Shown here: positions 27,132 through 59,929 of the stretch, in pieces
How positions within the stretch are numbered: position 1 is the stretch's first letter
How the letters are laid out: each line of letters opens with the position of its first letter
Origin: Buchnera aphidicola (Aphis craccivora)
GTDB taxonomy: Bacteria; Pseudomonadota; Gammaproteobacteria; Enterobacterales; Enterobacteriaceae
Direction of reading: 5' to 3'
Length of the DNA stretch: 64,000 nt
Assembly: GCF_005082145.1 (NCBI RefSeq)
Contig: NZ_CP034897.1
Location: 558,001 to 622,000, forward strand
Made by a program: the position numbers and the translations under genes
The notes under the pieces: model-generated
The model's database searches: none
Seen by the model: the letters and a program-made list of their open reading frames with translations, nothing else
Told to the model about the DNA's origin: nothing

Positions 27132-27775
27132 ATGGAATGGAAAAAAGAATTTATTGAGTTTCTTTTAAAAAAAAAGTCTTAAATTTTGGAACATTTATAC
27201 TAAAATCAGGACGAACTAGTCCTTATTTTTTTAATTCAGGATTATTATCAACAGGTAAAGATACTGCTAAAATTGGATTGTTTTACGCACGCGCAATAAT
27301 GGATTTAAATATTAAATTTGATGTATTATTTGGACCTGCTTATAAAGGTATTCCTATTGTAGTTTCTACTTCTATAGCGTTAAAAAATCAATATAATTTA
27401 GATATTCCATATTCTTTTAATAGAAAAGAAGAAAAAAAATATGGAGAAAAAGGAGAACTGATAGGTGGAAATATAAAAAATAAAAAAATTATTATTTTAG
27501 ATGATGTAATAACTTCAGGAATGTCAATAAACCATTCAATTAAAATAATTGAAAAAGAAAATTCTAAAATATCTTCAATTTTTGTTTTGCTTGATCGAAA
27601 AGAAAAAAGAGAGAGTAACTTACACAAGGTTAATTATCTAAAAAAACAAAAAACTCATAAAATCAACTCTATTATTACAATAAACGATTTGATTATTTAT
27701 CTTTCAAAAAAAGAAAAATTAAAAAAATATGCTTCTAAATTAATAGAATATCATGCAGAACATGGAACTTTTTAA
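27132..27775 (+). pseudogene. pyrE: orotate phosphoribosyltransferase, broken by a 1-base poly(A) frameshift (possibly rescued)
   Basis: PyrE joins orotate and PRPP to form OMP in pyrimidine synthesis. ATG at 27132 opens MEWKKEFIEFLLKK, then a run of nine A (27167-27175) shifts the frame and a stop follows at 27180. One more A would give LLKKKVLNFGTFILKSGR and continue in frame to 27775, giving 214 residues against 213 in E. coli. Everything after the tract is conserved: SPYFFNSGL, LFGPAYKGIPIV, and the PRPP loop IILDDVITSGMS. The otherwise intact sequence argues for recent breakage, slippage rescue or a sequencing error rather than an old pseudogene. It is convergent with dut, 11 bases apart. 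Confidence 0.9.
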
Positions 27776-27786
27776 AAATCTTATAT

Positions 27787-28251
27787 TTATATTCCAGAAT
27801 GACCAAATCCGCTTTTAAAACGAGCAGTTTTCTTAAATTTTTTGACTATAGAAAATTTTGGGCGAATAATTGGAACAAATACTATTTGTGCAATTCTATT
27901 ATTAGGATAAATAAAAAAATCTTTTACACTCCTGTTCCATAGTGAAATCATTAATTCACCTTGATAATCTGAATCAATTAAACCTACTAAATTCCCTAAA
28001 ACAATACCATCTTTATGACCTAATCCAGATCGGGGTAAAATTAAAGCAGTAATATAAGGGTTTTCAATATATATTGAAATTCCAGTTGGAACTAAAACAA
28101 CTTCTTTTGCAGGTAAAATTATTTTTTTACTTATACATGCTTTAAGATCTAGTGCAGAAGATCCAGAAGTAGCATATTCAGGTAAAAAACTATCGTTACT
28201 TTTAACTTCTTTAGTATTTAAAAATTTAATTTGAATTTGATTTGTATTCAT
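27787..28251 (-). CDS. dut: dUTP diphosphatase
   Basis: Dut hydrolyses dUTP to dUMP, supplying dTMP synthesis and keeping uracil out of DNA. The 154-residue trimeric dUTPase has its motifs in order: SALDLKACI (1), PRSGLGHKDGI (2), GLIDSDYQGEL (3), NRIAQIVFVP (4) and the C-terminal GFGHSG (5). E. coli orders dut and pyrE close together, as here. cysQ lies 35 bases upstream on the same strand. Confidence 0.97.
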   Translation of the reverse strand: MNTNQIQIKFLNTKEVKSNDSFLPEYATSGSSALDLKACISKKIILPAKEVVLVPTGISIYIENPYITALILPRSGLGHKDGIVLGNLVGLIDSDYQGELMISLWNRSVKDFFIYPNNRIAQIVFVPIIRPKFSIVKKFKKTARFKSGFGHSGI

Positions 28252-28286
28252 ATTTTATTAACGTGTTATTAAAATATATTTTAAAA

Positions 28287-29039
28287 TTACGATAAAACTA
28301 AAAAATCTGGATTAATTAACGATACTCTAGAAATCAAGGAATAATTTAAGCTTTTTCTTTCATTATATGAAATTACTTTTCCCCCTGCAGCTGCAACAAT
28401 AGCATGTCCTGCTGCAGTATCCCAGATATATGTTTTTCCAAATCTTGCGTAAACCTGCGCTTTTCCTTCTGCTACATAACAAAACTTTAAAGATGAACCT
28501 AATTTTTTTATTGTATACTTTTCGGTTTTCTTCAAAAAATCATGTAGTTTTTTATTTGGATGCGAACGACTAATAATAAATTTTGGTATATTAGATCGCA
28601 TTACAGAGATGCTTTCTTTATATCCTTCTGAATTTATTTTATAAGCTTGTTTTTTATAAGCGTAATATAAAGTATTAAAAAAAGGAGCATATACAACACC
28701 TAATATAGGTATTCCATATTCAATTAAACTAATATTAACTGTAAATTCACCATTTTTTTTTAAAAATTCTTTTGTTCCATCTAGCGGATCAATTAACCAA
28801 TAAGTATTCCAATTTTTATTATATTTAATATCATCAAAATCTTCTTCAGATAAAATTGGAATATTTGGCGAAATAGTAGTTAATCCACTTTTAATAATTT
28901 TATTAGCAATTTTATCTGCATTAGTTACAGGACTTTTATCAAGTTTATAAGAAATATCTAGTAATGCACCACTAGAATTATAAACTTTCATAATAGCAGC
29001 CCCGGCATTACGAGTGATTTTACAAATCTCTTTAAACAT
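28287..29039 (-). CDS. cysQ: 3'(2'),5'-bisphosphate nucleotidase
   Basis: CysQ removes the 3'-phosphate from PAP (a by-product of PAPS-dependent sulfate reduction) and related bisphosphates. The 250-residue inositol-monophosphatase-fold protein has the metal sites ILSEEDFD, DPLDGTKEFLKK and WDTAAGHAIVAAAGG. Length is close to E. coli (246). It lies 21 bases after the rplI start region on the same strand, keeping the E. coli cysQ neighbourhood near rplI. Confidence 0.95.
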   Translation of the reverse strand: MFKEICKITRNAGAAIMKVYNSSGALLDISYKLDKSPVTNADKIANKIIKSGLTTISPNIPILSEEDFDDIKYNKNWNTYWLIDPLDGTKEFLKKNGEFTVNISLIEYGIPILGVVYAPFFNTLYYAYKKQAYKINSEGYKESISVMRSNIPKFIISRSHPNKKLHDFLKKTEKYTIKKLGSSLKFCYVAEGKAQVYARFGKTYIWDTAAGHAIVAAAGGKVISYNERKSLNYSLISRVSLINPDFLVLS

Positions 29040-29060
29040 CTAACACCATTTTAAAATAAA

Positions 29061-29513
29061 TTATTTTTTAGCAATTATATTAACTATCAAATGTTCATAT
29101 ACTTCGCTATGCGGTTGAAAAATTACTTGATGCTCTCCTACATGACGCAATACTCCATTTGGTAATTTTATTTCTTTTTTATTAATTTTTATACCTAATT
29201 GAAATATTTCTTTAACAATATCTCTTACACCTACAGAACCAAATATTTTATTTTCTTTTCCAACTTTTGAAGGAATTGTGATAGATTTGATTTGCTTTAT
29301 TTTATCAGCACGAGATTTAGCAAGTAGTAACTCATTAATATTTTTTTCTTTTAATTTAATTTTTTGATCTTCAAAAGATTGAATATTTTTTTTATCAGCT
29401 AAAATAGCTTTTCCTTGAGGAATTAAATAATTTCTAGCATAACCTGATTTAACTTTCACGATTTTTCCAGAATCACCTAGGTTTTTAACTTTTAATAAAA
29501 GAATTACTTCCAT
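29061..29513 (-). CDS. rplI: 50S ribosomal protein L9
   Basis: L9 is a two-domain protein bound to domain V of 23S rRNA. The 150 residues match E. coli (149): N-terminal MEVILLLKVKNLGDSGKIVKVKSGYARNYLIP (seen in two conserved blocks), a long connecting helix, and a C-terminal RNA-binding domain (GSVGVRDI, HSEVYEHLIVNI). It follows rpsR with a 48-base gap in the rpsF-rpsR-rplI operon. Confidence 0.97.
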   Translation of the reverse strand: MEVILLLKVKNLGDSGKIVKVKSGYARNYLIPQGKAILADKKNIQSFEDQKIKLKEKNINELLLAKSRADKIKQIKSITIPSKVGKENKIFGSVGVRDIVKEIFQLGIKINKKEIKLPNGVLRHVGEHQVIFQPHSEVYEHLIVNIIAKK

Positions 29514-29561
29514 TATTTATTATTCTCTTTTAAATTTAAAAATATAATCATTAATTTTATA

Positions 29562-29789
29562 TTAACGATGTTGGTCGGTATAAGGAATCAAAGCAAGATA
29601 TCTTGCTTTTTTAATAGCTCTTGATAATTGACGTTGATATTTAGCTCTTGTTCCAGTAATACGACTTGGAACAATTTTACCATTTTCTGTAATATAATTT
29701 TTTAACATAGAAATATCTTTATAATCTATTTCTTGAATACCTTCTGCTGTAAAACGACAAAACTTTCGACGACGAAAATAACGGGCCAT
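29562..29789 (-). CDS. rpsR: 30S ribosomal protein S18
   Basis: S18 pairs with S6 on the platform of the small subunit. Starting at 29789 gives [17 protein letters not shown] and exactly 75 residues as in E. coli; an ATG three codons upstream was rejected. [14 protein letters not shown] is fully conserved. In E. coli priB lies between rpsF and rpsR; here the gap is about 100 bases, too short for priB, so that primosomal gene is absent from the operon. Confidence 0.97.
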
Positions 29790-29892
29790 ATAAAACATCC
29801 TTTAAAATTAAAAACAAAATAATTTTTAAATTTATATATATTTTTAAAAATTTTTATAAAAAGTATTTAAATAAAAATAAATTAATTAATAA

Positions 29893-30234
29893 TTATTTTT
29901 TTTCTTTTTTTTCTTCTTTTAGCTTAATTATAGGAGATGCTTCATTAATTGCTTTTTTAACTGATATAATCATATTTCTAATAATAGCAATATTAAAACG
30001 AAAATCTGTTTCCAATAAATTAATAACTTTAGGATAAGTTTCTATATTCATAAGAACATAATGTGCTTTATTCAATTTATTAATAGGATATGATAATTGT
30101 CTTCTGCCCCAATCTTCTAAACGATGTATAATTCCTGAATTATCAAGAACTATTTTTTTATATTTTTCAATTATTGTACTAATTTTATCGCTATAGTCAG
30201 GATGCACTATAAAAACTATTTCGTAATGACGCAC
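29893..30234 (-). CDS. rpsF: 30S ribosomal protein S6
   Basis: S6 binds S18 in the small subunit. The start is GTG at 30234, preceded by AAAGGAGC, giving [17 protein letters not shown]. The conserved [26 protein letters not shown] block is present. The 113-residue protein lacks the acidic C-terminal tail of E. coli S6 (the glutamylated end) and ends EEKKEKK. It heads the rpsF-rpsR-rplI operon. Confidence 0.97.
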
Positions 30235-30428
30235 AAAACGCTCCTTTTGGGTTTTTTAATTTCCTAGATTATAAAATTATAAAAATAATAGCTATTTCAA
30301 GGAAATAAGGAACTATTATATAAAATGATAGCTATTTTAAATACATGGTATTTTAATTTAATGAAAAAATCAATTAAATTTGATCTGATAAAAAATATAA
30401 AAAATAAAATTTTTAAAAATTAAATTTA

Positions 30429-32630: not shown

Positions 32631-32707
32631 ATTTACTTCTCCAGTTACATAGTTTAATTAAAATATTTTAAATATTTTCATATTAAAATTTATTTTTAAA
32701 CATAGAA

Positions 32708-34000: not shown

Positions 34001-34020
34001 TTCTTTAAAATACCTATTTT

Positions 34021-34950: not shown

Positions 34951-34954
34951 ATAT

Positions 34955-36382: not shown

Positions 36383-37351
36383 TTAAATATCAAATTTATA
36401 TTTTTTTTTAAGAATACCTGATATTTCTTGAAAAACAATATCTGGAGTAGAACTGATTAAAAAATGAATATTTTTCCATTTTTTTAACCATGTTAATTGA
36501 TGCTTAGCTAATTTTCTTGTTGCAAAAATAATTCTTGAAATCATTTCTTCATAATTAATTTGATATTCAAGATATTCCCACATCTGTCTATACCCTATAC
36601 ATCGTATAGATGGTAATTGTTTATTTAAATCACCTCTAAAAAATAAATTTTCTACTTCTTTTTGAAAACCTAACATTAACATTCTTTTTAGACGTAATTC
36701 AATTTTTTCATATAACCATGCTTTACTCTTAGGTAAAATAGCGAATTGAACTATATTAAACGGTAATTTATTAAATGAATCATTTTTTAAAGATGTTAAC
36801 GTTTTTCCAGAAATATAAAATACTTCTAATGCTCTTAATAATCGTTGAAAATCATTTTTATGAATATTATTAGCGGATATAGGATCTATTAAATTTAATT
36901 TATCATGCAAAAAATATTTATTAAATTTTGCTTTATCTAGTAAATATTTTCTAATTTCAACATTTGAAGGAGGTAAATTAGATAAACCATATAATAATAC
37001 ATGATAATAAAACATTGTACCTCCAACTAATAACGGTATTTTTCCTAATTTTAAAATATTTATAATCTCTTTATACGCGTCTGTTCTAAATTCAGCTGCT
37101 GAATAAACTTCACTAGGATCTTTAATATTTAATAAACGATGTGGATGCATTTTTAAATCTAAATAACTTGGTTTATCTGTTCCAATGTTCATATCACGAT
37201 AAATTAAAGCAGAATCTACACTAATTATTTCTACTGGTAAATATTTTCTAAGATATATAGCAATACTGCTTTTACCGCAACCAGTAGGGCCTATTAAAAA
37301 AAAAATAATTGGTTTTTTAAATTGAAAAATTTTTATATTTTTAATGTACAT
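36383..37351 (-). CDS. miaA: tRNA dimethylallyltransferase
   Basis: MiaA transfers a dimethylallyl group to A37 of tRNAs reading U-initial codons. The 322-residue protein has the P-loop FLIGPTGCGKSS, ISVDSALIYRDMNIGTDKP, PHRLLNIKDP, LLVGGTMFYYHVLL, and IRCIGYRQMWEYL. The P-loop reads GPTGCGKS rather than GPTASGKT. The start at 37351 is only about 20 bases from the remains of mutL, matching the mutL-miaA order of E. coli; hfq and hflX are absent before hflK. Confidence 0.96.
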   Translation of the reverse strand: MYIKNIKIFQFKKPIIFFLIGPTGCGKSSIAIYLRKYLPVEIISVDSALIYRDMNIGTDKPSYLDLKMHPHRLLNIKDPSEVYSAAEFRTDAYKEIINILKLGKIPLLVGGTMFYYHVLLYGLSNLPPSNVEIRKYLLDKAKFNKYFLHDKLNLIDPISANNIHKNDFQRLLRALEVFYISGKTLTSLKNDSFNKLPFNIVQFAILPKSKAWLYEKIELRLKRMLMLGFQKEVENLFFRGDLNKQLPSIRCIGYRQMWEYLEYQINYEEMISRIIFATRKLAKHQLTWLKKWKNIHFLISSTPDIVFQEISGILKKKYKFDI

Positions 37352-37372
37352 AATATTTAATCAATATTTATT

Positions 37373-38930
37373 TTATATAATAATTTTGAAAGATGTCATT
37401 TGAATATCAATAAACAAAAATATTCTATTTTAATAATAGAACCTTATCTGAATAACTCTAAGATTTTTTACATCAATATATGACTATCAAATCATTTTAA
37501 AATTTTTTAATATTAATCTTATCATTACAAAAGTAAATGAAAAAATTTGATATTAATTAATCAATATTCTTTTATAGAATATAAGGTGTTTTTTAAAATA
37601 ATATATTTTTAAATAAAATAAAAGAAAATCTAAATTTAAAACGTATTAATTGATTTATAAAACAAAATTTTATACTGCATAAAGCTAATAATAAATTGAA
37701 AGTTAAATAATAAAATTTAAGTATATGTTATTTAAATATAATATTGTTATTCATTTTGTTCAGTATTTTTTTCAAAAAATACAAAAATAAATATAAAATC
37801 GTTGAGATAATAAATTAATTCATAATATTTTTAATAATCATTAATAATCTCAAAGAATAAAAAGATTTATCTTTTTCTTTTTCTTTTGAATAAATATTAG
37901 TAAAGTTTTAAAATAATTTTTTTATTTTTCTAAAAATATTTTTTAATTTATTAACAATAAAAAATATAAAAATATTTAATAAAATATAGCTTTTTTCTAA
38001 AAAAATTATACGAAAACGACTGAATTTGATTTTTTGAAATATTTATAACCAAATTTTATATAAAAATATAAATTTTATTAGATTTATTAAGTATAAATTG
38101 ATTTTCAATAGAGTAAATATTAATATTTATTTTACTAGAAGGTATATAAATATATAAAATAAATAAATAATTAATTTTAACACCTATTATCTCATAATAA
38201 GCATTGAAAAATAGCATTATTTATTACGATATTATAAAATAAATTGATTATTAATATAACAATATTCAATATTTTTAAAAAATTTTAAAAAATGCGAAGG
38301 ATATATAATCCACTGAAACAACTTAATAATCACTTTTTAACTGTTATTAAATAGGAAACATCAAAATTATCAAATACTTAATTTAACTGAAGTATTATAT
38401 CATTAAAACTTTTTGTGTTATTATAATTTATAATTAAATTTTTATTTTTCGAATAAGATATATAAATTAAAATAAGTAAAGCTATTTTTGTTGTCATGTT
38501 GTAAACTTTTAAAAAATATGATTTTTTGATATTTAAAAATTTAAGATAAATTAGTATTATAAAATTAATTTTCTACTATAATATTTCATATCATTATATT
38601 GATAACAAGAAATCAATATAACTCTTAAAACCGTTTTAATACTTGATAATACTTCATTCGAAATCTAAATGTATTAATAATAGTTAAATTGGGAAAAATA
38701 GAAATTTTTATGAGGGAAAATTGCAAGTAATAATTCATTTTTTATTGATTTTATAGAAGTTATCTTTAATAACCATGGATTTAAAATCATTTTCTTCAAT
38801 ATTAATCTCAATATTTTCAGATTTTACATCAATGCTTTTCATAAAACTTCTTTAATTACAGAAATTTATCTTTCAATTTTTTCTCTAAATGAAATTTTAT
38901 TAGATATACTAATTAGTAAAAAATGAACAA
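37373..38930 (-). pseudogene. mutL: DNA mismatch repair protein MutL, extensively decayed
   Basis: No long frame exists here, but pieces of MutL can be read in order on the minus strand across three frames. Near 38916-38850 are SNKIS, EKIER and SVIKE (N-terminal ATPase). Near 38840-38740 is KSIDVKSENIEINIEE then MVIKDNFYKINKK (the DAGA...IxDNGxGI block). HKNFYFSNLTIINTFRFR follows, then KIALLILIYISYSKN near 38490-38430, EYCYINNQF near 38255-38230, and PSSKININIYSIENQFIL near 38140-38080 (the VDVNVHPAKHEVRF block). LFIDIQMTSFK then a stop at 37373 resembles the C-terminus. Position just upstream of miaA is that of E. coli mutL. Many stops and shifts mean it cannot encode MutL. Confidence 0.88.
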
Positions 38931-38967
38931 TTATTTTTTATTTATTTATAGTTAAATTATATTTAAA

Positions 38968-44019: not shown

Positions 44020-44562
44020 ATGAAATTTAATAATAAAAATTTGATTTGGATAGATTTAGAAATGACAGGACTAAATCCTAAAATCCATCGAATTATTGAA
44101 ATTGCTACTTTAATTACAGATGCACAACTAAATATAATTTCAAAAGGACCAGTGATTGCTATTAATCAAAAAGAAAAACACATATTACTAATGAACGAAT
44201 GGAATCAAAAAACTCATATGAAAACTGGACTAATTGAAAGAGTTAAACAAAGTACTTACAATGAATTTAAAGCAGAATCTAAAACTATACTTTTTTTAAA
44301 ACAGTGGGTTCCTTTAAAATCATCTCCTATATGTGGAAACAGCATATATCAAGATCGAAAATTTTTAAATCAATATATGCCTAATTTAGAGAATTATTTT
44401 CATTATCGTTGTATTGATGTTAGTACTATTAAAGAATTAGTATCACGTTGGCATCCTAAGATAAAAACATTCAAAAAAAAAAAAAAACATACTGCTTTAG
44501 ATGATATACAAGAATCAATAATGGAATTAAATTTTTACAAAAAAATTTTTTTTAATATTTAA
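44020..44562 (+). CDS. orn: oligoribonuclease
   Basis: Orn degrades very short RNAs to mononucleotides. The 180-residue protein (181 in E. coli) has the DEDDh residues Asp12 and Glu14 ([10 protein letters not shown]), Asp112 ([11 protein letters not shown]), and His157 and Asp162 ([10 protein letters not shown]). Five lysines (152-156) immediately before the last motif are encoded by a run of 15 A at 44473-44487. The frame is intact, but any slippage there would remove the catalytic His and Asp. It is divergent from pgi. Confidence 0.96.
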
Positions 44563-44802: not shown

Positions 44803-45697
44803 ATGATTTTTTGTCATTCTTACAAATGGATCATATTAGCTTTTTTATTAATGAGTTTTCAGGTGAAATTTGAAAAAAATATTAAAAACAACAACATTAA
44901 TAAAATAATATTCGTTAAAAAAATAAATAATTATCAAAAAAAAAATAGTTTTTTCTCATACTAATAAAAACAAAATAATTAAAAGAACAAAAAAAATTAC
45001 TATATTAATAGATCCAGGACATGGTGGACAAGATCCAGGATCAATTGGGCATAGAGGACTAAAAGAAAAAGAAATAACTTTAAAAATTGCTATTCAATTA
45101 AAAAAATTATTAGATAAAGATAAACTATTTAATGCTGTTTTAACACGTAACAATGATTCTTATTTATCTTTAAAAAAAAGAAAAAATTTTTTAAAATATC
45201 AAAATGTAAATTTATTACTATCTATTCATGTAGATTCTTCACAAAAATCATACGTATCAGGAATATCAATTTGGATTGTTTCAAACAATCGAATGCACCG
45301 TGAAATTAATAATTTTATAAAAAATAAAAAAGAAAAAATTTATTTTTATAAAAATATAGAAGATATATTTAAAAATAATAAAAATGACATATATTTAAAA
45401 AAAACAATTCTTGATTTACAATTTAATAATTTTCAAGCTATGGAAATTAAATTATCAAGTTGTATATTCCAAGAATTTAAAAAAATTATCAAAGTAAATA
45501 AAATTAAACCAAATTATGCTAGCTTAGGAATATTAAGCTCTATAAACACACCGTCTATTTTAATTGAAACTGGATTTATTACAAACTTTGAAGAAGAAAA
45601 AAAATTAAAAACAATTGCTTATCAAAAAAAAATAGCTAATACTATTTACGCTTCATTAAAAAATTATTTTCAAAATAAATCTACATCTGTTTTTTAA
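44803..45697 (+). pseudogene. amiB: N-acetylmuramoyl-L-alanine amidase, broken by a 1-base poly(A) frameshift (possibly rescued)
   Basis: Amidases of this family cleave septal peptidoglycan during daughter-cell separation. ATG at 44803 (AAGGAAAA site before it) gives a signal-like hydrophobic N-terminus (WIILAFLLMSF) and a K/N-rich linker. At 44936-44945 a run of ten A shifts the frame; with nine A it would continue for a total of about 297 residues. After the shift the Amidase_3 domain is complete: DPGHGGQDPGSIG, KEKEITLKIA, LSIHVDSS and ILIETGFITNFEEE, holding the zinc ligands and catalytic glutamate. The next in-frame ATG (45293) lies beyond the first two zinc motifs. The E. coli AMIN targeting domain and the AmiB length (445) are missing, so AmiC is an alternative name. 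Confidence 0.85.
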
Positions 45698-46142: not shown

Positions 46143-46392
46143 ATGTATAACAATCAAAATAAAATTAATTCAATGTATTTTAAAAAAAAAAAAAAAAATT
46201 AAATTTAATAAATATAATTTATTTATTATCTTATTAGTAATAATTATTTCTTTAATTTTTTTCAATATATTTCTAAAAAAAACAAATAATACACAAAAAA
46301 AAATATTTATTCAAAACAAAGAAGATGAAAATACATTACCTGCTAAACCAAAGGAAAGATGGAAATATATTAAAAAATTAGAAAATTTATAA
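46143..46392 (+). pseudogene. ftsN: minimal cell-division protein FtsN, frameshifted in a 17-A tract (possibly rescued)
   Basis: FtsN activates septal peptidoglycan synthesis. ATG at 46143 opens MYNNQNKINSMYF and enters a run of seventeen A (46182-46198). With sixteen A the frame would continue through a basic stretch, one transmembrane segment (LFIILLVIIISLIFFNIFL) and a periplasmic tail ending LPAKPKERWKYIKKLENL, total 82 residues. That tail matches the E. coli FtsN segment LPPKPEERWRYIKELES, part of its juxtamembrane essential region. The SPOR domain is absent. Position directly before hslV is that of E. coli ftsN. As printed, the frame stops just after the tract. Confidence 0.82.
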
Positions 46393-47058: not shown

Positions 47059-48390
47059 ATGTCTGAAATGACTCCCCCTCAAATTGTTGCTGAACTTGAT
47101 AAATTTATTGTTGGTCAAGAAAAAGCAAAAAAAGCGGTATCTATTGCATTAAGAAATCGTTGGCGTAGAATGCAATTAAATAATGAATTAAGACAAGAAA
47201 TTACACCCAAAAATATTTTAATGATTGGTCCTACTGGAGTCGGAAAAACAGAAATTGCTAGAAGATTGGCTAAATTAGCTAATTCTCCATTTATTAAAGT
47301 AGAAGCAACTAAATTTACTGAAGTAGGATATGTAGGAAAAGAAGTAGATTCAATCATTAGGGATTTAACTGATGCTGCTATAAAAATGGTTCGAATTAAA
47401 AATATTGAAAAAAATAAATCTAGGGTAGAAGAAATAGTTGAAGAAAGAATATTAGATATTTTAGTTCCAAGACCTAAAAATAATTGGACAGAAAACGAAA
47501 AAAATGAAAGTCTTTTAAATACTTTACAGATATTTCGTAAAAAATTAAGAGAAGGTGTTCTTGATGATAAAGAAATTGAAATTAACTTACTAGCTACTAC
47601 TATGGGTGTTGAAATTATGGCGCCTCCTGGTATGGAAGAGTTAACTAATCAATTACAATCTTTATTTCAAAATTTAAGTGGTCATAAAAAAAACACAAGA
47701 AGATTAAAAATTAAAGATGCAATTTTATTACTCAAAGAAGAAGAAGCTGCAAAATTAGTAAATCCAGAAGATATTAAAAAAGAAGCTATAGATGCAGTCG
47801 AACAAAATGGAATAGTGTTTATTGATGAAATAGATAAAATATGTAGAAGAAGTGATGTATCCGGACCAGATGTTTCAAGAGAAGGTGTTCAAAGAGATCT
47901 CCTTCCATTAATAGAAGGTTGCACTGTATCTACTAAATATGGAATGGTGAAAACAGATCATATTTTATTTATTACATCTGGTGCATTTCAAACATCTACA
48001 CCTTCTGATTTAATACCCGAATTACAAGGTCGACTTCCAATTAAAGTAGAATTAAAAGCATTAACAATAGATGATTTTGAAAAAATACTCACTGAACCTA
48101 CTGCATCAATTACAACTCAATATAAAGCGTTAATGGAAACAGAAAAAGTATATATAAATTTTACAAAAGAAGGAATTAGAAATATTGCAGAAGCAGCATG
48201 GAAGGTAAATGAATCCATGGAAAATATAGGGGCTCGTAGATTACATACAATATTAGAAAAGTTAATGGAAGATATTTCATTTAATGCTAGCAATAATAGT
48301 GGAAATACAATTGAAATAGATGCGAAATATGTTAGCAAACATTTAGATCAATTAATATCTAATGAAGATCTTAGTCGCTTTATTTTATAA
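47059..48390 (+). CDS. hslU: ATP-dependent protease ATPase subunit HslU
   Basis: HslU is the AAA+ unfoldase that feeds HslV. The ATG at 47059 gives [20 protein letters not shown] and exactly 443 residues, as in E. coli; an open extension upstream inside hslV was rejected. Walker A is GPTGVGKTE, Walker [10 protein letters not shown], the pore motif lies in [11 protein letters not shown], and the C-terminus ends EDLSRFIL, which docks into HslV. A hairpin terminator follows. Confidence 0.98.
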
Positions 48391-48460: not shown

Positions 48461-48487
48461 TTGAAAAAAAAAAAAAAGATCATATAT
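48461..48487 (+). promoter_or_regulatory. candidate sigma-32 heat-shock promoter of ibpA with poly(A) spacer
   Basis: TTGAAA at 48461-48466 resembles the sigma-32 -35 element and CATATAT at 48481-48487 is a -10-like element. The gap is mostly a run of 14 A (48464-48477). From memory, published work on pea-aphid Buchnera (Dunbar and colleagues, 2007) showed that losing one A in the homopolymer of the ibpA heat-shock promoter changes aphid heat tolerance, and this is the matching location. Confidence 0.65.
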
Positions 48488-49916: not shown

Positions 49917-49924
49917 ATTTAACT

Positions 49925-50798
49925 AATAATAATTAGATAAAAATCAACCATAATTTATACTGTTTAAAAATTACCATCTATTTTATATAAGTAAATTTAT
50001 TGCATATTTTTCTTATTTATCACTCATTAAATATTTTTTATTCTCTAAATAATCTATTAACTTATAAAATCCATTTCTCAAATTAATTCCTTTAAAAATA
50101 TTTTAAGTTTTTTGTGTAATAGAATTATTTTAATTATTTAAAAAAACAAGATAAGCTTGTTAGATAAGAAATCATATACAAATATAGATTTTCTTAAAGA
50201 ATTTTTATCAATAAAGTAAATAATATTTCTATATAACGTATTTAAATTTTTTTCAAATCATGTTGCATATCTAAATTAAATTTTTTTAAAATTTCATATA
50301 ATTCAGTAACATGAATAAAACAAAGATCTATATTTAAGTATTTTATAAAAATACTTTTTAATAAGAAATTTTATCTGATTTTTTCAAATTTTAATATTCT
50401 TTGAAAAAAAATTTATTTTATCAATGAATTTATTTGTAGAGCATGAAATTTGGAATGATTAGAAAATCCTAACTTCTGAATTATAATATTTTTATACATT
50501 CTTCATTTTTCAAACTACAAAATATTTAATATATTAGATAGTTTTATCTGCTAGTAAACATTTCATTATGTTATTCTGGATTAGTTATCAACTATAATTT
50601 CAGTATATTTAAGTGTTTTCTGGAGAAAAAATAATTAGTTCAAATAGTGTTAAATTTATATCTATTACTGTTGATTTAGATAATGATAGAGTTTCTGTTT
50701 GTAAAATTTTTTCTAAAAAATAAACGAATATTATTGATAATATTTGCTTTTTTAATTAAATCTTTAATATAAATCGCTTAGTTGCTAACTTTTTACAT
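49925..50798 (-). pseudogene. epmA: EF-P-(R)-beta-lysine ligase EpmA (GenX/PoxA/YjeA), decayed
   Basis: EpmA is a LysRS-like enzyme that attaches beta-lysine to elongation factor P. The minus-strand start keeps an AAGGAAG ribosome site and ATG at 50798, but the next codon is TAA. Fragments readable in order are DLIKKANIINNIRLFFRKN, then ETLSLSKSTVIDINLTLFEL, NIMKCLLAD, CSLKNEEC, KYLNIDLCFIHVTELYEILKKF (in two blocks) and, near 50100-50041, KGINLRNGFYKLIDYLE, matching E. coli KGIELANGFHELTD. At least eight stops and several shifts are present. The last third is barely recognisable. Confidence 0.85.
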
Positions 50799-50883
50799 AT
50801 AACTTCCTTTTAAAAATTTATATAAAAATAAAATTTAATATTTTAATATTATTACAGTTAAAATAAAAATTATCTATAAAAAA

Positions 50884-51393: not shown

Positions 51394-51424
51394 TATTTTA
51401 TTAATATAAATTTTAAAAATTTAT

Positions 51425-51460: not shown

Positions 51461-51482
51461 TAAAAAATGTTTCTTCAAAAGA

Positions 51483-52463
51483 TTAATTAATTACATATGA
51501 ATGTTTTATTATTGGTGCTTTTGTATATGAAAAAATTACACTACTTTTTACCCCGTAAGAATGGTGATGTGTTACATCATTTGCATCTATAGAATAAAAT
51601 TCGGATAAATTAGTAGCAATTATTCTGATAGTACCATCTTCTAAATGAGTAATCTCATAATAATTTTTTGCACGTACAATTCTAGATTTATTTAATTCTG
51701 GATGTTCAGCCATTAATTTTAAGTATGCTTGTTTTAATAATGCTGGATTTGCATATTGAGAAATAAACTTTTGTTCTATATCATTAGTAATTAATTTTTT
51801 AAAACCTTCCATCATACCTTCTTTGGTTGTAGAAGATATTAAATGTCCATCAATTAAAAAAACTGCGGAATCAAAATCTATCATAAAATATTTATCGAAA
51901 TGCTCAGGAATCTCCAATTTTTCATACATATCTTTATAAGTTACTTTGCTTTTTGCTTTTGAAAGTGATGGAGATTCATCAAAAACTGTCCAAGTATTTT
52001 TGTTATTTTTAAGATGATTAAAATGATTTTTTTCAATGTTTGTGTTTATTTTTTCTTTAAATACTTGGTTTTCTATTAAATTTTGCTCTTGAACTTCTAT
52101 ATCGAAATTTTCATCTAAATCACTTGGATATCGTATTTTAAAATTTTCTTCTTTTGGAATTTCAACATTTAAATCAGGGAAAGAACTTTCATATTCAGGA
52201 TGTTTAGGATTGTGATTTAATTTGTTGATTACTCTTAATCTTCCTTGGTCTCTTATTTTCTCTATTAAAGCATGTATAAATAATTTCGAAGACTCAATTG
52301 TTTTTTTCAGTTTTTTAACGTATTCAACTAAACTATCAATTTTTTCATCTACTTTTCTTGTAGATTCATCTTTTGAAGATCCAACAATAAACTCATAACC
52401 TGCATCAAAAATTTTTTTAAAGGTAGTACCATTAAATAAATCTATAGCGGCATTTTTAATCAT
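51483..52463 (-). CDS. orphan protein, C-terminal part of a split gene
   Basis: This 326-residue frame has no family I recognise. It is hydrophilic, with no signal peptide, no membrane segment and no cysteine. Features are a helical, charged N-terminal part (KVDEKIDSLVEYVKKLKKT), an acidic middle with ESSFPDLNVEIPKEENFK, and a C-terminal domain with better-conserved-looking composition (FMIDFDSAVFLIDGHL, THLEDGTIRIIATNLSEFY, VTHHHSYGVKS). The open frame continues upstream of this ATG without a stop to the 9-T (minus-strand 9-A) tract at 52661-52669, where it would join the neighbouring frame if one more A were present. From memory, Buchnera genomes carry lineage-specific orphan genes called yba in this region; this may be one, but I cannot verify it. 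Confidence 0.75.
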   Translation of the reverse strand: MIKNAAIDLFNGTTFKKIFDAGYEFIVGSSKDESTRKVDEKIDSLVEYVKKLKKTIESSKLFIHALIEKIRDQGRLRVINKLNHNPKHPEYESSFPDLNVEIPKEENFKIRYPSDLDENFDIEVQEQNLIENQVFKEKINTNIEKNHFNHLKNNKNTWTVFDESPSLSKAKSKVTYKDMYEKLEIPEHFDKYFMIDFDSAVFLIDGHLISSTTKEGMMEGFKKLITNDIEQKFISQYANPALLKQAYLKLMAEHPELNKSRIVRAKNYYEITHLEDGTIRIIATNLSEFYSIDANDVTHHHSYGVKSSVIFSYTKAPIIKHSYVIN

Positions 52464-52591
52464 ATTATAAGCTGCAGATATTTTTTCTTTTAATTGATTA
52501 ATTATATATTCGCTTATATCTTTTAAATTTAATTTTTTAATTGTTTCTTTAACTAATTCTAATAAAGCATAAAAAGTATTTGGGAAAAAGT

Positions 52592-53008
52592 CTAAAATAG
52601 ATTGAATAATTGATTTAAAATCGGTTTCATAAGAGGTTTGAGAAGGGGATTCAGAAGCAGTTTTTTTTTCAAAGAATTTTCAGTATCTAATTCATTAATT
52701 TTATTAGTATTAATTTCATTGTTTTGTTTTTTTTGTTCTATTACTTTTTTTTCTACAGCCTCTAGTTGTGACAAATATTTATTATATAATTCTTCTAACT
52801 TAATTAAGTTTTTTTCAGTTTCAGAGTAAGAAATTGTAACTTTACTACCGTTTTTGTTATCTTTATTTTTATTTTTGTTTTCGATATTTTCAATTATTTC
52901 TTTACGAATACGTTCAATCTCTTTAGGATCTATTTTAATTTCTGATTTATTATTGTGTTCTAAATACATTGGATTTAATTTATCAACTAGATTAATATTA
53001 GATGACAT
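52592..53008 (-). CDS. orphan protein, N-terminal part of a split gene
   Basis: This 138-residue frame starts at ATG 53008 behind an AAGGA site. Residues 1-55 are polar and rich in N, K and E; residues about 60-100 look like a coiled coil (LIKLEELYNKYLSQLEAVEKKVIEQ, by heptad spacing). After Lys114-116, encoded by the nine-A tract, the translated tail becomes a repetitive L/K/P sequence (LLLNPLLKPLMKP) unlike the rest, a typical out-of-frame tail. In the shifted frame the protein would continue TASESPSQTSYETDFKS and run to 51483, for about 508 residues in all. No family is recognised and there is no cysteine. Confidence 0.7.
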   Translation of the reverse strand: MSSNINLVDKLNPMYLEHNNKSEIKIDPKEIERIRKEIIENIENKNKNKDNKNGSKVTISYSETEKNLIKLEELYNKYLSQLEAVEKKVIEQKKQNNEINTNKINELDTENSLKKKLLLNPLLKPLMKPILNQLFNLF

Positions 53009-53234
53009 AATTTTTTTTCCTTTTTTAAAACTATTTAAACTATAAACTTGTTTAAGTAAAAATATTTTTATTAATCTTTAAAAACATTTTTTAAAAATTA
53101 ACAAAAAATAAATTTATTTTAATTTAATATTTTTTATTTTTAATATACATATAAAAAATAAAAAATTGTTATTTAGTATATTCTAAATCTATTTTTAGAA
53201 AAGTCAATTATTAATAATAAAAAATAAAAATATT

Positions 53235-53984: not shown

Positions 53985-54016
53985 GAGTACAACTTAATAA
54001 AAATGTACTCCTATTT
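53979..54016. terminator. terminator hairpin overlapping the rsmJ stop codon
   Basis: AAATAGGAGTACA at 53979-53991 pairs perfectly over 13 bases with TGTACTCCTATTT at 54004-54016, loop 12 bases. The TAG stop of rsmJ is inside the first arm. It serves convergent rsmJ and pitA. Confidence 0.8.
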
Positions 54017-54038
54017 AAAATTATAATTGAGATTTTAT

Positions 54039-55496
54039 TTATTGTATTAAAAATAATGCTATCCAATATAAGAAACTAGAAAGTAAAATAGAAATAGGTA
54101 AAGTTAATATCCATGCAATAATAATATGTTTTACAGTACTGTTTTGAATTCGATCTCCATCAGCTAACATTGAACCTGCTACTGATGAAGATAAAATATG
54201 TGTTGTAGAAACAGGTATTCCTGTATAACTAGCTATTCCAATAGAAAAAGCAGCAGTTGTTTGAGCGGACATAGCCTGTGCATATGTCATTCTTCTTTTT
54301 CCTATTTTTTCACCAATAGTTACAACAATACGTTTCCAACCAAACATTGTACCTATAGATAAAGCAAATGCAATCATTAGTATCATACCAATTGGTGCAT
54401 ATTCTACAGTTTTAAGTATTTCTTTTTTAATTTTATATAAAATAATTTTTTCATTTTTATTAATATTAAAATTAGTTATTTGATCAATATTTTCAGAAAT
54501 ACAAAGTAAAAAATGACGTAATTGGAATCGTTGCTTTATATTTAATGTTTTATAATTATATACATTATGTAATAAAATTTGAGTTTTTTTTGCATTCTTC
54601 ATTATATTAGAATAATTGAAGTATAATTTTTTATTATTATCGTTTTTTTTAATGTTTTTTAAAAAATTATCTGAATAATATTTTTGTAAATAATTAATTG
54701 ATTTTTTTGTATAAATAATTTCCTTTTTAGAAGCATTTAGATTTACTAAAAAGTTAGCTGGAACAATACTAATTAAAACAAGCATGATAAGTCCAATTCC
54801 TTTTTGTCCATCATTTGCTCCGTGTGCGTAACTAACTCCTATAGACGATAAAATCAATGCTATTCTAATTGAAAGTGGAGGGCTTTTTTTTCCTTTATTT
54901 TTTTCACGTTCTAACGGGTTCATATGAATTTGATTGAATTTTTTATATTTATTTGTAATATACCGCAACAAAAACATTAAAATTCCAGAAATTATTAATC
55001 CTATAATAGGAGATAAAATTAACGATATAAAAACGTTTAAAATTTTAGGTATATTTAATGCATTTACTAAAGAAGAACCTGTGGTAATTGCATTAGTTAA
55101 ACCAATCCCAATAATTGCGCCGATAAGAGAATGTGAACTAGATGCAGGTAAAGAAAAATACCAAGTAGATAAATTCCATAAAATAGCAGCAAGTAAAATA
55201 GAAAAAACCATCGCAAGTGCATGTTGAGAATTACTATTTAATAGTAAATCGTTAGGTAATAAATGAACAATAGCATATGCTACTGTTAAACCCCCAAGTA
55301 AAACACCTAAAAAATTAAATATACCAGATATTAAAACCGCAATATTTGCAGACATAGCTCTAGTATAAATTAAAGTAGAAACAGCGTTTGCTGTATCATG
55401 AAAACCATTAATAGCTTCATAAAATAAAACAAAAAATAAAGCTAAAAAAATAAATAAACTATGATTCAAGTCAGAATAAGAAAATAAATATAGCAT
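54039..55496 (-). CDS. pitA: low-affinity inorganic phosphate transporter PitA
   Basis: Pit proteins import metal-phosphate complexes driven by protons. The 485-residue membrane protein (499 in E. coli) has the PHO4 family duplicated signatures: EAINGFHDTANAVSTLIYTRAM near residue 30 (read in blocks) and TAAFSIGIASYTGIPVSTTHILSSSVAG near residue 430, plus SYAHGANDGQKGIG. The cytoplasmic loop around residues 255-360 is K/N-rich. It is convergent with rsmJ. Confidence 0.95.
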   Translation of the reverse strand: MLYLFSYSDLNHSLFIFLALFFVLFYEAINGFHDTANAVSTLIYTRAMSANIAVLISGIFNFLGVLLGGLTVAYAIVHLLPNDLLLNSNSQHALAMVFSILLAAILWNLSTWYFSLPASSSHSLIGAIIGIGLTNAITTGSSLVNALNIPKILNVFISLILSPIIGLIISGILMFLLRYITNKYKKFNQIHMNPLEREKNKGKKSPPLSIRIALILSSIGVSYAHGANDGQKGIGLIMLVLISIVPANFLVNLNASKKEIIYTKKSINYLQKYYSDNFLKNIKKNDNNKKLYFNYSNIMKNAKKTQILLHNVYNYKTLNIKQRFQLRHFLLCISENIDQITNFNINKNEKIILYKIKKEILKTVEYAPIGMILMIAFALSIGTMFGWKRIVVTIGEKIGKRRMTYAQAMSAQTTAAFSIGIASYTGIPVSTTHILSSSVAGSMLADGDRIQNSTVKHIIIAWILTLPISILLSSFLYWIALFLIQ

Positions 55497-55598
55497 AATA
55501 TTTTAGCCATTTTGATGAATTGAACTAAGTTTATTATCCTTGAGAAACTACCTTTTAGGAAAGTAAAATATAATAATTTTTTTTAAAAAATATTTTAT

Positions 55599-56804
55599 TT
55601 AATTAAGTTGTTTTAATTTTACAGACAAAAATATTCCATAAATCAAAACAATTGTCATAAAAATTGAAATTCCAAACCATTTCGAATACAACCAAAAAAA
55701 CCCACCAAATGTTCCAAATACACTAGAACCTGAATAATAAAAAAATAAATATAAAGAAGTAGCTTGTACTTTTGAAAACTTTGCATATGAACTAACCCAG
55801 CTACTGGCAATTGAATGAGATGCAAAAAATCCTCCTGAAAAAATTATCAATCCTAAAATAATCATGATAATGTGGTTAAACTGGGTAATAATTAAACCTA
55901 AAATCATTAATAATAATGATATTATTAATATGTTTCCTTTATTATATTTGCTCGTTAAAATTCCAGCTTTAGGAGAACTATAAACTCCAGTTAAATATAT
56001 AATAGACAATAATCCTATGCTTGAGGAACTAAATAAAAATGGTTTTAATATTAATCGATATCCAATATAGTTAAAGATAGTAACAAAGCTTCCCATTAAT
56101 AAAAAACCTATCATATAAAGAATAAATAGTATTGGGTTTTTTAAATGTGAATAAAAATTATTTAAAAATTTTTTATAATTAATTGGAATTGGATAAAAAT
56201 TTTTTGAAGGGGGTAAAAGATATATAAATAAAAAAGATGATATTAAAGAAAAACAACCAGTGATAAATAATGCAGTATTCCATGAAAAATATTCTGCTAC
56301 AATACTACTAAGGATTCTTCCAAAACATCCGCCTACAGTATTTCCACTAATATATAATCCAATACAAAATGATAGTGAATGAAAATGAATTTCTTCCACT
56401 ATATATGTCATTCCAATTGCAACAACTCCACTTAAAGATAATCCTATCAAAGCACGAAGAAAAATTATAATTTTCCAATGCTCTACAATAGAACACAAAA
56501 TTGTTAAAATTGATGCAATTAATAAAGATGTAGACATAATTAATTTTCGACCAATGACATCTGATAAAATTCCCGTAAACAATGTTCCTACAGCCATAGT
56601 TGCAGTTGTGGCAGATAAAGATAAACTACTTTCAGTTGCAGTTAAAAAAAATTGTTTTGAAAATATTGGTAAAATTGATTGCACGCAATATAAAATAGAA
56701 AAACTAGAAAATCCTCCTAAAAAAAGAGATAAAATAATTTGATTAAATTCTTTTGTATTCTTCTTAATATATGTTTTTTTTTCAGTAATACTTTGATTTT
56801 TCAA
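55599..56804 (-). CDS. ynfM: MFS transporter, YnfM type
   Basis: This 401-residue protein has 12 hydrophobic segments and aligns with E. coli YnfM along its length: LYCVQSILPIFSKQF, LFTGILSDVIGRK, RALIGLSLSGVVAIGMTYI, LYISGNTVGGCFGRI, GFLLMGSFVTIFNYIGYR and SGGFFASHSIASSWV. YnfM is a putative drug/arabinose-type exporter with unproven substrate. Retention of a metabolite transporter in such a small genome suggests a role in exchange with the host cell (inference). dapF lies 29 bases downstream of... its own start region on the same strand. Confidence 0.9.
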   Translation of the reverse strand: MKNQSITEKKTYIKKNTKEFNQIILSLFLGGFSSFSILYCVQSILPIFSKQFFLTATESSLSLSATTATMAVGTLFTGILSDVIGRKLIMSTSLLIASILTILCSIVEHWKIIIFLRALIGLSLSGVVAIGMTYIVEEIHFHSLSFCIGLYISGNTVGGCFGRILSSIVAEYFSWNTALFITGCFSLISSFLFIYLLPPSKNFYPIPINYKKFLNNFYSHLKNPILFILYMIGFLLMGSFVTIFNYIGYRLILKPFLFSSSSIGLLSIIYLTGVYSSPKAGILTSKYNKGNILIISLLLMILGLIITQFNHIIMIILGLIIFSGGFFASHSIASSWVSSYAKFSKVQATSLYLFFYYSGSSVFGTFGGFFWLYSKWFGISIFMTIVLIYGIFLSVKLKQLN

Positions 56805-56833
56805 AACTCTTAAAAACTCCTATAATTAATATT

Positions 56834-57688
56834 TTATATGTATATATAACCTTCATAAATATGTTTTGCTGGTCCTGTCATATATAAAGAATTTCCAAAA
56901 CCTTTCCATTCAATGAACAAATTTCCACCTAATAACTCAACTTTTACATTATTAGAAAGAAGATTCTTTGCAACACCTACTGCAACTGCAGCACATGCAC
57001 CGCTTCCGCAAGCTTTTGTTTCTCCTTCATTGCGTTCATGAACTCTTAATTTAATATGATCTTTTTTTAAAATTTGCATAAAACCTACATTTATCCCATT
57101 AGGAAAAATAAATTTTTTTTCTATTATTTCACTAATAGCTTTTACAGGTGCATATTTTATAGATTGCACTTGAATAACACAGTGAGGGTTACCAATTGAA
57201 ACTAAACTACATAATAAGTTGTTATTAATAATTTTTACTGAAAAATTATGATTTTTTAATTTTTCAGAATTTATTATTGAGTTTAATTTAAAGATAGGTT
57301 CGTTCATATTTATTTCAATTATGTCTTTAGAAATAAAATTAATAATTATATTTTTTTTATTAGTGCTAAGATTTATTCTCTTTTTATTAGTTAAACCTTT
57401 TAATATTAAAAATAATCCAACACATCTAGCGCCGTTTCCACATTGTTCGACTTCATTTCCATTTGAATTAAAAATACGATAATGAAAATCAAATTTAGAA
57501 TTATATGATTTTTCGATAAGTAATAATTGATCGAATCCTATTCCTGTATTTCGATTTGATAATTCTTTTATTTTTAATGAAGATACAACAAAATCTTGTG
57601 TAATTGATTCAATAACCATAAAATCATTACCTAAACCATGCATTTTAGAAAAATTAATTTTTTTTCTGTTGTTAATGTTTAAGTGCAT
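56834..57688 (-). CDS. dapF: diaminopimelate epimerase
   Basis: DapF converts LL- to meso-diaminopimelate, the precursor of lysine and peptidoglycan. The 284-residue protein carries both catalytic cysteines, Cys83 (EQCGNGARC) and Cys227 ([14 protein letters not shown]), offset by ten from E. coli Cys73 and Cys217 because of a longer N-terminus ([10 protein letters not shown]). [13 protein letters not shown] and GNPHCVIQV are conserved. It precedes ynfM on the minus strand and is divergent from cyaY, as in E. coli. Confidence 0.96.
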
Positions 57689-57798
57689 TTAAAATCCCAA
57701 ATAGTTTGTAATTTTATATAAAAGTTTTTAAGTTAAATAAAATTATACAGATTTTATTTATTTGTAAAAATTAATTAAATAAATTTTAGGAAATATTC

Positions 57799-58146
57799 AT
57801 GAAAAATAAAATAATTTCTAACCAAAAAAATAATTTTTATAAACTAGTAAATGAATTATTTCTTAAAATTGAAGATAATTTAAATTTATATATTGATAAA
57901 ATTGATTTTGATTATGAAATACAAGATTATATGATCACTATTACTTTTTCAAACAAAAGCGTGATTATAATTAACAAACAAGAATTCTTACAGCAAATTT
58001 GGTTGGCTACAAAATTAAATGCATATCATTTTAACTATCATGTAAATAAATGGGTTTGCAATCGTAGTAATAAAAGTTTTTGGGAAATATTCCAAAAATC
58101 TTTTTCTATGCAATCTAATACAAGTTTAAAGTTTGATAATATTTAA
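57799..58146 (+). CDS. cyaY: iron-sulfur cluster assembly regulator CyaY (frataxin)
   Basis: CyaY is bacterial frataxin, which binds iron and tunes IscS-dependent cluster assembly. The 115-residue protein (106 in E. coli) has the frataxin core: [31 protein letters not shown] and [15 protein letters not shown]. The acidic ridge of helix 1 is partly kept ([18 protein letters not shown]). It lies between dapF and hemC, matching the E. coli dapF-cyaY-hemC neighbourhood. Confidence 0.95.
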
Positions 58147-58239
58147 AAATTTTTAAATATATCATCAATAATTACATATTTTATTATGATTTTATAATGA
58201 TTTTTGAAAAAATATTTTATACTAAATATGAATAGTAAT

Positions 58240-59169
58240 ATGAAAAAAAAAATATTAAGAATTGCTACTAGAAAAAGTCCTTTAGCTTTAAAACAAACTA
58301 AATATGTTGAAAAAAAAATATTATCTTTATATCCTGATCTAAATATACAATTAGTACCTATAGTTACACATGGAGATAATATTTTAAATAAATCACTTTC
58401 TAAAATTGGAGGAAAAGGACTTTTTATAAAAGAATTAGAATTTGCTCTACTTGAAAATAGAGCGGATATTGCAATACATTCAATGAAAGATCTTCCTGTG
58501 CATATTACTAAAGAGTTATGTTTAGTTAGTATATGTAAAAGAGGGAATCCATTGGACTCATTAATTTCTAATCATTATAAATCTATCAATCAATTACCTA
58601 AGGGAGCAGTAGTTGGAACATCAAGTTTAAGAAGACAGTGTCAATTAATAACTTATCGACCAGATTTAATTGTTTCTCCTTTAAGAGGAAATATAGAAAC
58701 AAGAATAGCTAAGTTAGATCAGGGTAAATATGATGCAATAATTTTGGCAGCCGAGGGATTGAATAGGTTAAGTCTAAAACATCGGATTACTCAAATTATA
58801 CCTGCTGAATTATCACTTCCTTCGTGTGGACAGGGCGCTATTGGAATACAATCCAGGTTACACGATAAAAAAATATTATTTTTTTTATCACGTTTAAATC
58901 ATATTAATACTTTTATTGAAATAAGTACAGAACGTGCATTTTGCAAAAATTTAGAAGCAGGATGCCAAATTCCAATTGGAAGTTATGCAGTTCTTAAAAA
59001 AAATAAAATTTGGCTTAGAGGTTTGGTTGGTTCGCCTGATGGAGCAGTTATATTAAAAGGAGAAAGAACAGGATGGTATGATACTGCAGAAGAAATGGCA
59101 TACTCTTTAGCCAATGAATTGCTTGATAATGGCGCTCGAAAAATTCTTGATGATATTTATACTAAATAA
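58240..59169 (+). CDS. hemC: porphobilinogen deaminase (hydroxymethylbilane synthase)
   Basis: HemC polymerises four porphobilinogens into hydroxymethylbilane. Starting at 58240 gives [14 protein letters not shown], in step with E. coli and with the dipyrromethane-bearing cysteine at residue 242 ([11 protein letters not shown]), the E. coli number; ATG 58228 (four residues longer) is also possible. [39 protein letters not shown] and RGNIETR are intact. hemD follows after 11 bases. Confidence 0.96.
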
Positions 59170-59180
59170 TTGAATTAAAA

Positions 59181-59929
59181 ATGAAAATATTAGTGATGCG
59201 ACCTTCTCCTGAAGGCGAAAAATTAGTAAATATACTAAATGATATAGGAATTTTATCTTGGCATTTTTCTTTGTTTGATTTTTTACCTAGTACAAGTTCA
59301 ATTAGTTTATCAAAAAAAATTTATAAATTATATATATCAGATATAATTCTTATTTTTTCTAAAAAATCTGTTTATTATACAAATTTATATCTAAATCAAA
59401 ATAATTTGCATTGGCCTATTATTCCAGATTATTACACAATTGGTAAAGGTACAGCAATATTTCTTAAAAAATATGTTAAAAAAAAATTTTATTTCCAGAA
59501 AATGAAGAAAATAGTGAAGCTTTATTAAAGCTTTTACATAAAAAAGATATTAGTAAATCTAAAATAATTTTATTAAAAGGAGAAAATGGCAGGAAATTAG
59601 TAGAAAAAAACTTAAGAAAAAATAATTTTAATATATCTATTATAGAATGTTATAAAAAAATTTTTAAAAACATAAATAATCATTCAGAAATAAAAAAATG
59701 GCGTTCTTATGGAATAAATACGTTAATAGTAACTAGTGGTGAAATTTTAAATAGATTAAATGAAACAATTGATATTTTAAACAAAAATGAATGGTTATTT
59801 AAATGTAAAATATTTGTCGTAGGGAAACGATTAAGTCAAATAGCTAAAAAAATAGGATGGAAGGATATTATTATATCTAATTATGCTGATAATAAAAATT
59901 TACTAAAAATTGTTAAAAAATATAATTAA
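59181..59929 (+). pseudogene. hemD: uroporphyrinogen-III synthase, broken by a 1-base poly(A) frameshift (possibly rescued)
   Basis: HemD cyclises hydroxymethylbilane to uroporphyrinogen III. ATG at 59181 gives MKILVMRPSPEGEKL and reads well to KKYVKKK, where nine A (59478-59486) put the frame out and a stop appears at 59526. With ten A the frame continues KKKILFPENEENSEALLKLL (E. coli QKILYPQDREISEVLLQL) to a stop at 59929, about 249 residues against 246. Beyond the tract ILLKGENGRKLVEKNL, IIECYKK, VTSGEILNRL, VVGKRLSQIAKKIGW and YADNKNLL all match. Both halves are conserved, so the break is recent or rescued. It is in the hemC operon. Confidence 0.9.

Follow-up and report, generated by a model that had tools for sequence, protein, structure and literature searches.

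Old single-base frame breaks at adenine runs in Buchnera genes and their probable rescue by polymerase slippage

A 64,000-nucleotide stretch of the genome of Buchnera aphidicola from the aphid Aphis craccivora (positions 558001 to 622000 of the main contig in a 641,853-base genome), called the window here, carries five genes whose reading frames are each interrupted by one base at a run of adenines (A): pyrE, amiB, ftsN, hemD and a gene that we call the orphan gene. Are these genes decaying, or are their proteins still made across the breaks? Comparison with related genomes suggests an answer for four of them. The split forms of pyrE, hemD, the orphan gene and amiB are probably old and not fresh pseudogenes, and their expression is probably rescued by RNA polymerase slippage at runs of about nine bases or more. 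That one window shows five such breaks would follow chiefly from the fact that the majority are long-standing states shared with relatives.

Single-base breaks and their spread through the genus

Frames were checked by translating the window in all frames, and run lengths and positions were read directly. The comparison set comprises 36 genomes of the same genus (this genome, G000, and 35 further ones), with G007 as the closest relative for comparisons. Pfam and NCBIfam were searched with the frame pieces taken apart, at a threshold of 0.001. A tree was built on 13 proteins, and 295 genomes of the same family were sampled for comparison beyond the genus. Selection is expressed as the ratio of nonsynonymous to synonymous substitution rates (dN/dS). 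The main features are as follows, numbered from the first base of the window.

27132..27182, + strand: pyrE upstream frame, ATG to stop (start spacing compared in 36 genomes)
27167..27175, + strand: pyrE A9 run, where both frames are open (A9 in 14/14 split genomes)
27176..27775, + strand: pyrE downstream frame, orotate phosphoribosyltransferase (TIGR00336, E-value 2.5e-48; dN/dS 0.058 against G007)
44803..44964, + strand: amiB upstream frame with a signal-peptide-like N-terminus (equivalent in 32/33 genomes with the enzyme domain)
44936..44945, + strand: amiB A10 run, lying within the frame overlap (G007: A10, same offset)
44946..45697, + strand: amiB downstream frame, Amidase_3 (PF01520, E-value 2.3e-46; dN/dS 0.364 against G007)
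46143..46202, + strand: ftsN upstream frame, a short N-terminus (from translation)
46182..46198, + strand: ftsN A17 run (length varies among relatives)
46199..46392, + strand: ftsN downstream frame with a hydrophobic segment (NF008179, E-value 2.5e-6 on part of it, a weak match)
52592..53008, - strand: orphan upstream frame, 138 amino acids, MSSN start (from translation; relatives compared)
52661..52669, - strand: orphan A9 in the frame overlap (coding strand; T9 on the + strand; exactly A9 in 32/32 split genomes)
51483..52679, - strand: orphan downstream frame, 398 codons (match in 34/36 genomes; dN/dS 0.376 against G007)
59181..59528, + strand: hemD upstream frame (NF004582, E-value 2.8e-26)
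59478..59486, + strand: hemD A9 run (A9 or A10 here in 21/24 genomes with the same offset)
59487..59929, + strand: hemD downstream frame, encoding the C-terminal half of uroporphyrinogen-III synthase (PF02602, E-value 1.4e-17; dN/dS 0.226 against G007)

These runs have the places and lengths given in the initial annotation, and each of the five genes changes frame once at its run and is otherwise open on both sides; exceptions to this form occur among relatives, for example in hemD of G018. The breaks exceed what chance would give, as identical ones recur in relatives. Since related genomes carry identical breaks, which persist across species in pyrE, hemD, the orphan gene and amiB, a private or recent origin of these four was rejected.

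The orphan gene is split in 32 of the 34 genomes in which it has a match, and the overlap of its two frames holds exactly nine A in every split genome, where random stretches of the same genes would hold such a run with a mean chance of 0.07. The columns flanking the run are about 60% identical; the alignment was anchored on the A9, and identity within the tract is there by construction. In G030 (L107) the gene has regained a single frame of 515 amino acids without losing the A9; the frame comes back a few dozen bases downstream, so that the intervening peptide is different. In G035 the A9 is kept and the first part of the gene is damaged. The orphan family was found in 31 of the 295 sampled genomes, spread over 12 other genera and this one. 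In the 28 matching genomes from those 12 other genera, a script found no split in any, which points most simply to a single origin of the split in the stem of the genus. The window pieces of the orphan gene gave no Pfam or NCBIfam match at the threshold, and no consistent weak family match emerged over 32 members. A plasmid search with a neighboring protein yielded distant matches only.

For hemD, 33 genomes could be classed: 24 share one break direction, three have the other, and six have a single frame, one of which (G014) contains three stops. The break lies at the identical site in 21 of the 24 and at a neighboring A9 or A10 in G011, G022 and G033. Outside the genus, hemD was located in 10 of the 28 genomes and is open for 244-270 amino acids in seven of these; in the remaining 18 it was not found. 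Most simply, the hemD split would also have arisen in the stem of the genus. Going by the strain identities that we assigned, the hemD and orphan splits appear common to symbionts of Aphidini and Macrosiphini, which we take to be the tribes of the hosts compared. The split between these two tribes has been fixed at 65 million years (PMC3164680).

The state of pyrE was assigned by the spacing between its start and an anchor, which is 47 nucleotides in split and 48 in unsplit genomes. By this measure pyrE is split in 14 of the 36 genomes, and the A9 is kept in 18 of the 22 unsplit ones as well. Together with the shorter spacing, this suggests that the base was probably lost just upstream of the A9, and that the run is a possible slip site and not the lesion. 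The initial annotation had set the lesion within the tract itself; the frame change by the A9 stands, and its placement inside the run is probably wrong. Three changes are enough to account for the split states on the 13-protein tree, most simply one gain in the ancestor of a clade of 14 genomes, a return in G028 and a separate gain in G025.

In amiB, the signal-peptide-like start was recovered in 32 genomes; it lies in a different frame from the enzyme in 25, shares the enzyme's frame but is separated from it by a stop in two, and belongs to a frame open throughout in five. The two frames overlap by at least 12 bases in 22 of the 25, and 21 of these 22 overlaps contain an A/T run of at least nine (chance 0.12).

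ftsN behaves less steadily. Among the 24 of 30 listed genomes whose states were judged by eye, 13 are split and 11 open, and the run length among the 13 ranges from 9 to 19. G007 has A13 and an open frame, and G021 and G034 (A14), G030 (A13) and others are split there. The A17 given in the initial annotation was confirmed, but the break is absent from the closest relative, and the exact length of the run here could be a reading error. Similar breaks occur in two further genes, with orn broken at A10-A16 in 7/35 genomes and miaA at A10-A12 in 4/35 (G014, G018, G022 and G023). Within the window, orn, which encodes oligoribonuclease, carries an in-frame A15 (44473-44487), and miaA is open (36383-37351). 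Of 16 control genes, dut, mtlA, pgi, purA, rplI, rpmE and rpsF were free of lesions. The remaining controls showed the orn and miaA breaks, decayed cysQ and hemC genes in the genomes G002 and G014, a frame change of rnr in G016, and apparent single stops.

Selection past the breaks and the pathway of hemD

The split genes are under purifying selection beyond the break, at levels near those of intact genes. Between this genome and G007, the downstream dN/dS is lowest in pyrE and rises through ftsN (0.21, a weak case) and hemD to amiB and the orphan gene, giving a range of 0.058-0.376 against 0.078-0.294 in eight control genes. The combination of relaxed selection and further lesions that marks a pseudogene was not found in the five genes, in contrast to hemD of G014 and to the mutL remnant of the window.

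Within the genus, hemD tracks its pathway and is absent or riddled with stops where sulfite reduction is lost or damaged (G009 was left out of this comparison). The sulfite reductase domain is present in 34 of the 36 genomes. In the two without it, G002 and G026, a query with the upstream half of HemD found no match genome-wide, and cysQ is absent or filled with stops; G002 retains a downstream fragment of hemD and has hemC in pieces, and hemC was not found in the stretches of G026 examined. G014 has a sulfite reductase frame of 398 amino acids versus the 574-588 seen elsewhere, and stops in hemC and cysQ in addition to those in hemD. The 32 other genomes keep hemD, 27 of them split and five open, with G018 the least clean. 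HemD has been called very rare among sequenced Buchnera, and a relatively recent loss was suggested in pea-aphid strains (PMC3890641). Our comparison instead suggests a gene that in most species is split and kept; it is split rather than lost in 27 of the 33 genomes classed.

As a separate observation around window positions 28287-29039, cysQ, hemC, hemD and sulfite reductase are jointly lost or left as remnants in G002 and G026, and all of them are damaged in G014.

Polymerase slippage and competing explanations

How could proteins be made from such genes? In the mechanism that we favor, a one-base frame shift would have occurred long ago beside an A/T run in hemD, the orphan gene, pyrE and amiB. 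RNA polymerase would slip at runs of about nine or longer, so that some messenger RNA (mRNA) carries one base more or fewer, and the ribosome would read through this corrected mRNA to yield some full-length protein. Selection would then act to preserve the two halves, and in the orphan gene, at least, also the run length of exactly nine. In ftsN, and in orn and miaA of other species, the runs are mostly longer and would switch more frequently between in-frame and out-of-frame states. We infer from the sequences that slippage occurs, that the polymerase rather than the ribosome is its agent, and that protein is obtained in this way.

The direction of the shifts is informative. In pyrE, hemD and 29/32 orphans, the frame would be restored if the RNA gained one base or if the ribosome slipped by -1, and amiB and ftsN here need the opposite. 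Polymerase slippage fits breaks of both directions because RNA bases can be either added or dropped. Efficient in vivo slippage of bacterial RNA polymerase is reported for runs of nine A or T (PMC5009743), and in Buchnera 151/157 transcript insertions fell in homopolymers (PMC5574713). The initial annotation had proposed that this genome relies on slippage; slippage remains the best account of the breaks, and a link between the breaks and the loss of mismatch repair is not supported. A more far-reaching proposal seems to us evenly poised between right and wrong. Under it, at least three genes (orphan, hemD and amiB) would depend for their expression on a nine-base A/T run that became fixed across most of the genus before the two large aphid tribes split. 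Slipped transcripts would then be the sole source of full-length protein in most species, and HemD would be made in most of them, which would account for their siroheme.

Ribosomal -1 frameshifting is possible for pyrE, hemD and the orphan gene, and as an account of the breaks it is rather unlikely but deserves the most attention among the alternatives. Here the mRNA would be faithful, and the ribosome would slip back by one base on the A run, at A AAA AAA or A AAA AAG, a slippery heptamer motif as in dnaX of E. coli. The three genes shift by -1 in this genome with the heptamer in phase, and the direction suits 29/32 split orphans, 24/27 split hemD and 14/14 split pyrE. Such a slip cannot, however, explain amiB and ftsN of this genome or three orphans, in all of which the shift runs the other way, and a seven-base site would suffice for it, yet the orphan run is nine in 32/32. 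Folding of the downstream RNA was compared with shuffles in five stretches and then in five pyrE stretches (a further one, L042, was dropped as being of the wrong strand), and across the few genomes so covered no stimulatory fold was found as a steady feature. Beyond the pyrE run, the RNA of this genome and of G007 is more stably folded than its shuffles (z -2.47 and -2.81), but the fold is equally strong in the unsplit G001 and G017 (z -3.76 and -2.73) and missing in the split G021 and G023 (z +0.81 and -0.77); values for the orphan gene (z +0.93) and hemD (z -1.06, +0.47 and +0.32) show no fold either. That these are ordinary decaying pseudogenes, each struck by a homopolymer indel, is very improbable. 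Inactivation by homopolymer indels is indeed common in Buchnera (PMC3164680), and a pseudogene state of HemD has been described for strains from the pea aphid (PMC3890641), but the breaks are kept genus-wide, the downstream frames are long and free of stops, and dN/dS there is well below 1 in most pairs. True decay looks different, as in mutL here and hemD of G014 and G002, and the view of the initial annotation that the breaks are not ordinary decay is upheld on these grounds.

Translation of the downstream halves as separate proteins is less probable still. A restart could be imagined at the ATG 117 codons into the amiB downstream frame or at the first possible start of pyrE (ATG, GTG or TTG), a TTG 33 codons in. 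It offers no route in hemD and ftsN, because their 146 and 66 downstream codons contain no ATG, GTG or TTG, and among the split orphans the position at which an ATG first occurs in the downstream frame varies anywhere from codon 33 to 201. Assembly error, which the initial annotation had raised as a possible refutation, ranks last and has next to no probability. Long runs are hard to read, and the A17 break of ftsN is missing in the closest relative; against this, the assemblies of other species show the same frames in pyrE, hemD, the orphan gene and amiB.

Several observations weigh against polymerase slippage at selected runs as a uniform explanation. The offset is reversed in three orphans (G001, G006 and G013), in three hemD genes (G013, G018 and G035) and in 8/22 of the amiB overlaps; amiB has little or no frame overlap in G012, G019 and G035 and a same-frame stop in G003 and G016. 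The hemD gene of G018 is broken twice, once at an A12 and once at an A9, although sulfite reductase and hemC look whole there. A survey of Buchnera transcripts saw no restored frame (PMC5574713). Selection is not evenly strong either, with dN/dS of 0.44-1.03 in the upstream part of the orphan gene across five pairs, 0.598 (G030-G034) and 0.599 (G014-G018) downstream in hemD in two of eight pairs, and 1.11 (G018-G022, 38 codons) and 0.81 (G003-G031) downstream in ftsN. Furthermore, runs that need no rescue can persist too. In-frame A9 runs are exactly nine in 25/34 genomes for cysQ and 21/33 for hemC, and in-frame A runs of at least nine in the window remain at least nine in 155/495 orthologue cells, reaching 73% at single sites. 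Because in-frame A9 runs are often kept, as is that of most unsplit pyrE genes, it is chiefly in the orphan gene that a pure run stands out. Breaks at long runs are also partly expected, indels being commoner there.

Precedents, mismatch repair and neighboring sequence

Rescue by slippage on poly(A) was reportedly described for Buchnera and Blochmannia by Tamas et al. 2008. The genes studied here resemble those cases in the type of symbiont and in a frame break within an A run. They differ in identity from the cell wall genes and the histidine gene that, as far as the accessible text goes, were involved there, and in that their splits are common to up to 32 genomes. Ancient homopolymer frameshifts in Blochmannia that are kept by selection are, to judge by the title, reportedly the subject of Wernegreen et al. 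2010. The breaks described here are likewise old and selected; they concern another genus and 36 genomes, and come with a fixed A9 in one gene and the tie between hemD and its pathway. Rescue by slippage is thus reportedly already described for symbionts of aphids and ants, and the retention of ancient homopolymer frameshifts for those of ants. What is added is the spread of the hemD and orphan splits over most of the genus, the unvarying A9 of the orphan gene, the tie to pathway loss, and evidence that repair loss is not the driver. A conserved split hemD, pyrE or orphan gene in Buchnera was named in no title or abstract opening that we found.

In reported cases of rescue, transcript slippage gives 12-50% corrected mRNA (PMC5009743). 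Productive polymerase slippage at a run of nine is also described for dnaX of Thermus, where a single open frame encodes the longer product and the shorter one arises by slippage, whereas here slippage would make the longer (PMC5009743). The -1 ribosomal frameshifting of E. coli dnaX shares with three of our genes an A-rich slip site and the direction (PMC5009743), but no steady stimulatory fold was found here, and the other genes need the opposite direction.

If rescue by polymerase slippage is true, frame-broken genes of symbionts could not be counted as lost from sequence alone, hemD being an example. The unvarying A9 of the orphan gene would furthermore offer a test of how long selection holds a slip site, and of whether slip sites of this kind work like a dial by which the amount of a protein is kept low.

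The window also contains what is left of a mismatch-repair gene:

37336..38937, - strand: mutL remnant (tblastn with the G007 MutL frame, E-value 3e-69 over two pieces)

The remnant lies in pieces that are 35-43% identical to the open MutL of G007, in agreement with the earlier description of mutL as dead, and no MutS_V domain was found in the whole genome of this symbiont. G007 has open frames for both MutL (581 amino acids) and MutS (811 amino acids). It keeps both proteins and nevertheless has pyrE, hemD, amiB and the orphan gene split as here, so repair loss is not the cause of these splits. The idea that the tracts drift fast through the loss of mismatch repair is not supported, in view of the same four breaks of G007 and the constant length of the orphan run.

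Across the set, MutS and MutL are both present in 21 genomes, a class that includes four short frames (mutL in G003 and G031, 385 and 406 amino acids; mutS in G012 and G016, 278 and 402 amino acids), and absent or broken in 13. The p values of this comparison are only guides, the species being related. pyrE is split in 7/21 genomes with both repair proteins and in 7/13 with neither (Fisher p 0.30), and no excess of splits without repair was seen for hemD (p 0.35), orn (0.68) or miaA (0.14). The amiB splits, counted here and on the tree as 27 (including the two with a same-frame stop and the three with little or no overlap), differ in the sense opposite to that expected from repair loss (p 0.04). 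Long A/T runs in genomes with and without repair differ neither in number (p 0.42) nor in length (p 0.63). As a driver of the breaks, mismatch-repair loss was ruled out by G007 and by this lack of association over genomes.

Two further stretches of the window stand apart from these genes. About 970 bases at 49917-50883 hold no open reading frame of 60 amino acids and are perhaps an eroded gene, and an intergenic A14 lies at 48464-48477, downstream of an open reading frame that ends at 48390.

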